DNA of 47,665 bases, from positions 1-47,665 of the forward strand of contig JARKPC010000034.1 of NCBI GenBank assembly GCA_029975435.1, given 5' to 3'. Below the pieces are notes generated by a model, which saw only the letters and a list, made by a program, of their open reading frames with translations, searched no databases and had not been told where the DNA came from. Below are positions 43,885-45,387 of the stretch, one piece after another (position 1 is the first letter of the stretch; every line of letters starts with the position of its first letter). The DNA comes from Propionivibrio sp. GTDB lineage: Bacteria > Pseudomonadota > Gammaproteobacteria > Burkholderiales > Rhodocyclaceae. Position numbers and translations under genes: made by a program.

Positions 43885-45387
43885 ATGGCCACTGTCGCTA
43901 AAGCTGCAACATCCAAGAAAGCTGTTCCTGCCAAGAAGGCTGCTCCCGCCAAGAAGGCCGCTCCGGCCAAGAAAGTCGCTCCCGCCGCCAAGGCCGCTCC
44001 GGCCAAGAAGGTTGCCGTTGTCAAGAAACCTGTCGCCGGTAAGAAGGCTGCTGTAGCCGCCAAGCCCGTGGCCGCTCCGTTCGTCAAGATCAGCAAGGTC
44101 GTCGGCCGCCAGATTCTCGATTCGCGCGGCAATCCGACCGTCGAAGTCGATATCCTCCTTGACAACGGTTTCCTGGCGCGTGCGGCTGTTCCGTCCGGTG
44201 CTTCCACGGGCGAGTTCGAAGCCTGCGAACTGCGCGATGGCAACAAGAAGGTTTATCTCGGCAAGGGCGTAACGAAGGCGGTTGACGCCGTCAACGGCCC
44301 GATCGCCAAGCTGCTCAAGGGCAAGAACCCGCTCAACCAGCGTGAACTCGACGAAGCGATGATCGCCCTCGACGGCACCTCCAACAAGGCGAAGCTCGGC
44401 GCCAACGCCATCCTCGGCGCGTCGATGGCCATTACCGTCGCCGCTGCCAACGTCAGCAAGATGCCGCTGTGGAAGTACATCGGCAAGCTGCACAAGAACA
44501 AGGAGTTCGTGCTGCCGACCCCGATGGCCAACATCATCAACGGCGGCCACCACGCCGATAACCTGATCGACTTCCAGGAATTCATGATCATGCCGGTCGG
44601 CGCAAAGACCTTCTCCGAAGGCCTGCGCTGGATCACCGAAGTCTTCCATGCCCTGAAGAGCACGCTCAAGAAAGGCGGCCACATGACGGCCGTGGGCGAC
44701 GAAGGCGGTTTCGCGCCGAACCTGTCCAACGACGAGGCGCTGGAAGTCATCATGCAGGCCATTGCCGCTGCTGGTTACAAGCCGGGCAAGCAGATCGCCA
44801 TCGCCCTCGACACTGCCTCCTCGGAACTGTTCGACGAAGGCGACCGCAAGGGTTACAAGTTCTGGAAATCCGCGCCGGACAAGCTGTTTACCGCAGAAGA
44901 AATGGTCGCCAAGTATGCCGACTGGTGCAAGAAGTACCCGATCGTTTCGATCGAGGACGGGCTCGACCAGAACGACTGGGAAGGCTACGTCAAGCTGACC
45001 AAGGAACTCGGCAAGAAGGTGCAGATCGTCGGCGACGATTTCTTCGTCACCAACCCCGGTCGCCTGAAGAAAGGTATCGACATGGGCGCGTGCAATTCGA
45101 TCCTGATCAAGGTTAACCAGATCGGTACCGTGACCGAAACGCTGGATGCCATCAAGCTGGCGCAGCAGGCTGGTTACAGCGTGGTCTGTTCGCACCGCTC
45201 GGGTGAGACGGAAGATACCTTCATCGCCGACCTCGCCGTGGGTACCGGTGCCGGTCAGATCAAGACCGGTTCGCTGTCGCGTACCGATCGCATCTGCAAG
45301 TACAACCAGCTGATTCGCATCGAGGAGCAACTCGGTGCCAAGGCCGTCTTCAAGGGCCTGAAGTCGATCAAGGGCGCAGGCTTCTGA
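43885..45387 (+). CDS. eno: Enolase with H1-like Lys/Ala/Pro N-terminal tail
   Basis: Phosphopyruvate hydratase, 500 residues instead of about 430. The catalytic part starts near residue 66 ([20 protein letters not shown]) and keeps the known residues: Glu in [51 protein letters not shown] and [10 protein letters not shown]. Residues 11-64 are nine hexads of KKAAPA type, strongly basic, like histone H1 tails. The tail is in frame, reads from the first ATG after a TATAAT, and the only inner start (GTG, codon 62) lacks a ribosome site. Neighbours are not the usual pyrG or kdsA. It probably still works in glycolysis; the tail may bind nucleic acid or other polyanions (inference). Confidence 0.95.
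43915..44076 (+). repeat. 18-bp tandem repeats encoding Lys-Ala-Pro hexads
   Basis: Nine consecutive 18-base units encode [48 protein letters not shown] and AKPVAA. The first five units are most alike at DNA level (AAGAAGGCTGCTCCCGCC type), and the later ones are diverged. Such a tract can expand or shrink by slippage. Confidence 0.9.

Follow-up and report, generated by a model that had tools for sequence, protein, structure and literature searches.

An auxiliary enolase with a predicted polycationic N-terminal tail in Propionivibrio: a sequence survey of its translation, origin and possible roles

Lys/Ala/Pro repeats which are free of acidic residues, and whose length varies with tandem DNA repeats, are known from the H1-like KPAA tails of AlgP and PhaF. 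According to passages of one report, KPAA peptides of AlgP bind DNA, and for the related PhaF tail a role in tethering granules to the nucleoid has been proposed (PMC9239181). Enolase has been connected with fluoride: excerpts of one study present it as a known fluoride target which is often found in fluoride-riboswitch operons (PMC11139923), and excerpts of another give a 176-fold rise of eno with fluoride in E. cloacae FRM (PMC5533749). The portions of the Accumulibacter literature consulted name eno without telling its copies apart.

Here we surveyed and analyzed a tailed enolase gene in a window of 47,665 nucleotides of Propionivibrio sp. (GCA_029975435.1, contig JARKPC010000034.1), together with its relatives. 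Its tract shares the repeat character of the AlgP and PhaF tails; unlike them it is N-terminal, is made of hexads instead of KPAA tetrads and is borne by a metabolic enzyme. Both domains and the catalytic motifs are those of the standard enolase (TIGR01060, EC 4.2.1.11, phosphopyruvate hydratase), from which it differs by a 66-residue polycationic tail, by a body pI above 8 against about 5 and by being an extra copy and not the housekeeping one. Like the enolases of fluoride operons it is an extra enolase close to crcB. The comparison covers eno of E. cloacae FRM, which is likened by description alone, and a further copy in the same genome (contig C119), which lies on a different branch from the tailed enolase; unlike these, the tailed enolase has its tail, a riboswitch was not found at its locus and the linkage is absent from the sister genus. 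Extra enolases, fluoride-linked enolases and KPAA tails are each known, and what is new is their combination; the openly accessible article texts searched contained neither a second or tailed enolase in these bacteria nor a genus-wide paralogue in which a glycolytic enzyme bears an H1-like tail.

That the tail is translated and selected, and that it sits on a foreign paralogue, is when taken jointly highly probable. Our leading reading of its role, to which we give a probability of roughly 0.4, is that the charged tail may hold the spare enolase on a polyanion in the genus of the window. In these bacteria the cycling of glycogen and PHA uses enolase in both directions, and a second, foreign and differently charged enolase could change the reading of transcript and proteome data. 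The paired tails, a polycation in one genus and a Lys/Glu tail in a polyphosphate storer, offer a natural experiment on the limits that polyanions in the cell set to the charge of proteins, and the crcB linkage bears on whether spare enolases guard against fluoride.

The tailed gene and the translation of its tail

The first-pass annotation had described an enolase preceded by about 65 residues with nine tandem hexads, and the tail, residues 1-66 of the open reading frame, has exactly the coordinates given there (Table 1). The hexads are of Lys/Ala/Pro/Val type and account for 54 of the 66 tail residues; the DNA under them is an imperfect 18-bp repeat (5.5 copies, 79% matches), which is also detected as a 36-bp repeat of 2.9 copies. 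Over the 73 residues up to the GRQ motif the net charge is +19, with no Asp or Glu. The enolase was said to be complete and conserved, as it is: Enolase_N and Enolase_C are both complete, the score lies above the NCBIfam cut-off and the catalytic motifs are kept, so a working enolase is expected. In an alignment of 17 enolases the columns of the presumed catalytic residues (Ser/His/Glu/Asp/Lys, with identities taken from the E. coli and yeast enzymes) do not vary, and the best solved relative by sequence is 1iyx, aligned over its residues 4-426 of 432.

Table 1. Positions of the features in the window; the last row refers to a locus on another contig of the same assembly
Feature	Position	Strand	Evidence
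Tailed enolase CDS	43885..45387	+	500 aa, ATG start; TIGR01060 647.7 bits
Lys/Ala/Pro/Val N-terminal tail, residues 1-66, free of Asp/Glu	43885..44082	+	ORF translation, composition
Nine hexads (residues 11-64) coded by nine 18-bp units	43915..44076	+	Repeat analysis, translation
Enolase body; basic, catalytic motifs present	44083..45384	+	Enolase_N residues 69-199, Enolase_C 208-496
SD-like GGA, 8 nt 5′ of ATG	43874..43876	+	By eye
-10-like hexamer TATAAT in the DUF190-enolase gap, ~55 nt before ATG	43824..43829	+	By eye; putative
crcB, fluoride exporter family	42997..43383	+	PF02537, 101 bits; neighbour in relatives too
DUF190 gene, crcB-enolase interval	43401..43748	+	PF02641, 61.7 bits (on 43404-43745)
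Fluoride riboswitches, L005 (G000:C119:50000-66000)	12161-12230 and 153-222	-	58.2 and 54.8 bits

The description of the tail as H1-like holds for its composition, which is like that of H1 and AlgP. Fusion with an H1-like protein finds no support, as the domains detected by Pfam are those of enolase and the enolase superfamily alone, with no AlgP, phasin or H1 domain beside the tract. A profile of the tail, run on eight same-genus genomes, returned nothing below E 0.1 except enolase tails; its three matches outside enolase have E 0.14, 0.55 and 2.3, and one of them looks Arg-rich and unlike the tail. Since profile and Pfam point to enolase alone, the tail seems to be a repeat that expanded locally. 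A DNA pattern of KKAAPAKKA type found the enolase tail alone in two genomes (G000, G027) and nothing in a third (G010), whose enolase tail it also missed. KKAAPA as a generic genus-wide protein tag was thus not seen in the genomes searched by pattern and profile.

An in-frame, stop-free and Lys-rich tail is present at all 20 same-genus N-termini (19 intact loci and that of genome G008). The 19 pooled tails, 1047 residues in total, have the composition A 0.37, K 0.26, V 0.13 and P 0.11, with eight Asp or Glu residues and no stop. They range from 25 to 104 residues with many indels, and the proposal that a tract coded by 18-bp repeats would vary in length is thereby borne out between species. 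The tails of L021, L022 and L024 contain more Ser/Thr than the other same-genus tails, and in these three and L017 the net charge is only +5 to +11.

The substitutions carry the signature of a coding sequence under constraint. Codon position 3 changes most in 11 of 13 tail pairs, L021/L022 being nearly flat and L017/L024 tied with position 1, and the gapless pair L016/L019 has 9, 8 and 17 differences at positions 1, 2 and 3. Among nine pairs without a common row there are 19 AAA/AAG differences against no Lys-to-Asp/Glu change, both kinds being A/G transitions; in this count rows are not reused, tree paths possibly overlap and the protein-guided alignment favours the pairing of Lys with Lys. 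All 171 same-genus pairs, which are non-independent, give 377 synonymous Lys differences against 11 Lys-to-acid ones, and eight pairs of the sister genus Accumulibacter (g43) give 4 against 1.

Start codons were surveyed in 37 loci of the two genera (36 distinct, as L037 and L166 are the same record). ATG, GTG and TTG are absent from the 14 codons before GRQ in 29 of them; the other eight have a GTG near the body, with no ATG and no SD-like motif. For the window gene the sole start candidate within 14 codons of GRQ is the GTG at codon 62, which has no SD-like sequence. An open tail behind an upstream ATG is kept in all 37 loci, and by eye GGA or GGG/GGAG occurs at the same spot before the ATG in the aligned loci. 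It is therefore extremely improbable that the tail is a 5′ untranslated region with translation beginning at the enolase body: the GTG at codon 62 of the window gene and the GTGs near the body in eight of the 37 loci would permit such a start, but 29 loci offer none, the GTGs have no SD-like motif in any of the eight loci, the tail shows codon-position bias and a GGA/GGAG-like stretch stands 5′ of the upstream ATG.

Two ways in which the tail could be spurious had been named by the first-pass annotation. A start at or after codon 62 gains no support from the survey, and a local assembly error is very unlikely because the tail recurs in separate genomes; on recurrence, codon signatures and start codons together we reject a misassembly and, as far as sequence tests go, a mis-called start. 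Judged from these alignments, the tail is very probably translated, and selection very probably holds its positive charge in the genus of the window.

Origin, body charge and distribution

The trees join the tailed rows and three Fibrobacterota-binned rows (L038, L039, L176) in one group, supported at 100/100, which stands apart from both other enolases of the window genome. The grouping with these three was recovered in a second tree, and an earlier quick tree showed it with two such rows. Their bodies are the closest to the tailed enolase, with 77-81% identity and the same basic charge, and they have no tail. On this placement the tailed enolase is taken to be horizontally acquired and foreign to its family. 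As the remaining 18 Fibrobacterota rows are placed elsewhere in the tree, the genomes of L038, L039 and L176 may have received the gene as well and need not be its donors. The label of L039 (CADBQJ010000239.1), Fibrobacter succinogenes, is doubtful because its contig has 70% GC, and the contig may be misbinned. In the careful trees the Accumulibacter rows are nested among the rows of the window's genus (AU p 0.033 against one clade); an early quick tree had put its sole Accumulibacter row, L037, outside them. L174 (G398), whose body match is partial, was excluded from the trees and from the pI counts.

The body pI is 8.10-9.05 (mean 8.67) in 19 same-genus tailed enolases, 6.31-8.41 (mean 7.34) in 16 Accumulibacter orthologues, 9.05-9.44 in L038 and L039 and 9.31 in L176. 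The comparators have 4.55-5.02 (11 housekeeping relatives), 4.76-5.08 (12 Spirochaetota) and 4.51-7.56 (58 others, counted from 64 loci of which six were not parsed). As the tailless relatives are equally basic, the charge of the body probably predates the addition of the tail and is no sign of a new job. With the tail included, the pI of the whole protein is 9.1-9.8 in five same-genus (g1) examples.

Basic enolases were also observed in many Fibrobacterota outside the tailed clade (pI 8.7-9.2 in L177-L182, L184-L186, L188-L190 and L192-L194), which is unusual against the acidic enolases sampled elsewhere. In 17 of the best 20 Fibrobacterota matches from a draw of 80 genomes the enolase is basic (pI at least 8.69), one of these being the gene of L038 itself.

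The tailed paralogue is present in 20 of 28 same-genus genomes, in one piece in 19 and over two contigs in G008, and is absent from eight, four of which are 92-97% complete. In a draw of 395 genomes of the family, Accumulibacter (g43) was found to have orthologues with 80-85% identity: 17 of its 21 listed genomes carry one. Among the genomes listed from outside both genera, none goes below a best E-value of 1e-152, where the housekeeping type of about 60% identity falls, eight matchless genomes being outside the listing. The name Accumulibacter for g43 follows NCBI naming, and this genus holds a contig of Accumulibacter SCELSE-3, which bears the same tail. One record, L036 (JAITIQ010000050.1), is labelled Accumulibacter in NCBI, yet its contig is identical to that of G011, a member of the window's genus.

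A second, tailless enolase had been suggested as a thing to look for, and the assembly of the window (81.9% complete, 292 contigs) contains two besides the tailed one. The enolase on contig C250 has pI 4.55, is 57% identical to the tailed one and follows a kdsA-like ORF recognized by eye; it is taken as the housekeeping copy. That on C119 lies in a fluoride locus with crcB behind the stronger of two fluoride riboswitches, the second being about 12 kb from it (Table 1), and the region looks like a full fluoride-resistance locus. Genes resembling a Na+/H+ antiporter, UspA and, twice, MutS were also seen there by eye.

In the window itself, transposase-like ORFs were seen by eye near both contig ends, at 14-1159(-) and 46414-47553(-). 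The right one overlaps the start of a dehydrogenase-like ORF at 45441-46670(-), whose first 90 residues have no match in the relative L007.

The crcB neighbourhood and fluoride

In 13 of the 20 tailed same-genus genomes, that of the window included, crcB lies upstream of the enolase on the same contig. G019, which is broken at contig ends, fits the linkage, as DUF190 adjoins the enolase and crcB is at the edge of another contig; in the remaining six crcB is elsewhere (three) or was not found (three), the upstream sequence sometimes being short. A DUF190 match lies between crcB and enolase in 12 crcB-bearing enolase loci and was not found in that interval in G008. A comparable arrangement exists in the Fibrimonadaceae MAG G060 (L129, G060:C20:1-1972), where crcB is followed 26 bp on by the start of a basic tailless enolase and then the contig end; another contig opens with the same bases and carries the enolase gene (L038). 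The crcB of G060 is only about 39% identical to that of the window, so the linkage may be independent.

These neighbourhoods, together with the inhibition of enolase by fluoride and the recurrence of enolases in fluoride operons, to which parts of two papers attest (PMC11139923, PMC5533749), suggest that the enzyme could be a fluoride-tolerance enolase beside CrcB, which would sustain glycolysis under fluoride inhibition of the housekeeping copy, the tail being secondary. We consider this possible but somewhat unlikely. The fluoride riboswitch RF01734 was not found at E<=1 in 41800-45600, and none reached the gathering score in the relatives scanned; a riboswitch at the tailed-enolase locus was hence dropped. 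The enolase has a putative -10-like box of its own, and by eye hexamers resembling TATAAT occur in other aligned loci, those without crcB included. The linkage was not seen in the six tailed genomes mentioned above, and in the sister genus crcB is absent from the stretches fetched around 17 Accumulibacter enolases and was located elsewhere in all 17 genomes. Eleven Fibrobacterota genomes were checked; six have crcB and one has it beside enolase. Moreover, the window genome already possesses, on C119, a fluoride locus of the riboswitch type that includes a different enolase. A fluoride role is compatible with the tail holding the enzyme on a polyanion, and it leaves the tail unexplained.

Possible roles of the tail in the two genera

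In the reading preferred here, an auxiliary enolase of normal catalysis would have been acquired horizontally, and after transfer a polycationic tail, presumably disordered, would have been added to an already basic body. The sequence of the tail is not fixed and its charge is kept, which suggests that it acts through charge and not through sequence. It might loosely hold the enzyme on a polyanion, nucleic acid, be it nucleoid DNA or RNA, being the most likely partner by analogy with AlgP and PhaF; nucleic acid is favoured over polyphosphate with modest confidence. Weighing against this reading are the four same-genus tails of low charge, the Lys-to-acid changes that appear when all 171 pairs are counted and the net-neutral tail of the sister genus. 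We infer both the binding of nucleic acid and any benefit that the tail may bring.

Repeat drift without function is a serious rival, though on balance an unlikely one. The tail would then be a side effect of 18-bp slippage that a permissive N-terminus tolerates; its Lys/Ala/Pro/Val bias would come from the repeat unit, and it would do no more than leave the enzyme unharmed. The tandem array, the spread of lengths with their many indels and the different repeats of the sister genus (KAE, VEQ) are what slippage would produce, but lysine codons often change synonymously and seldom or never to those of an acidic residue, and every one of the 37 loci keeps its tail open behind the upstream ATG.

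Accumulibacter is a polyphosphate storer, and its orthologues share an N-terminal extension of different charge. These tails have 20-42 residues and a net charge of -2 to +1 in all 17 loci (L158-L174, the body match of L174 being partial); mostly they start with MAK..KVKK and go on with K/E/Q/V repeats (KAEKAEKAE, VEQVEQ). As the Accumulibacter tail is net-neutral, a polycation is not needed for whatever job is common to both genera.

The same tails weigh on the suggestion of the first-pass annotation that polyphosphate might be the partner, and they make it less likely. Tethering to polyphosphate granules, which we regard as highly unlikely, has in its favour that AlgP with KPAA repeats associates with such granules (passages of PMC9239181), that in excerpts of another study the N-terminal lysines of YihI bind polyphosphate with acidic residues alongside, as in the K/E tails (PMC12345225), and that the whole protein is strongly basic in the five g1 examples. 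Against it, the polycation belongs to a genus whose described species are reported, in parts of two papers, as non-storers of polyphosphate (PMC4930944, PMC9238405), and the storer has the net-neutral tail. This argument is not firm, because 27 of the 28 genomes of the window's genus, all but G023, carry a match to the Pit family (PF01384), most g43 genomes having 3-5; as a marker of polyphosphate storers within the window's genus PF01384 is for the same reason uninformative.

A bolder form of the polyanion reading, which we hold to be quite unlikely, is that the charge of the tail serves as the address of a localised isozyme in the Propionivibrio/Accumulibacter lineage. A pure polycation would keep the enolase on nucleic acid in a genus without polyphosphate storage; on entry into Accumulibacter, whose polyphosphate would sequester any polycation, glutamates (KAE, VEQ) would have neutralised the tail, and the body would have lost charge too. 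If this were true, the polyanion content of the cytoplasm would shape the surface charge of enzymes. The facts compatible with it are that the tail types split by genus, that the mean body pI is 8.67 against 7.34 and that the Accumulibacter copies are nested among those of the window's genus.
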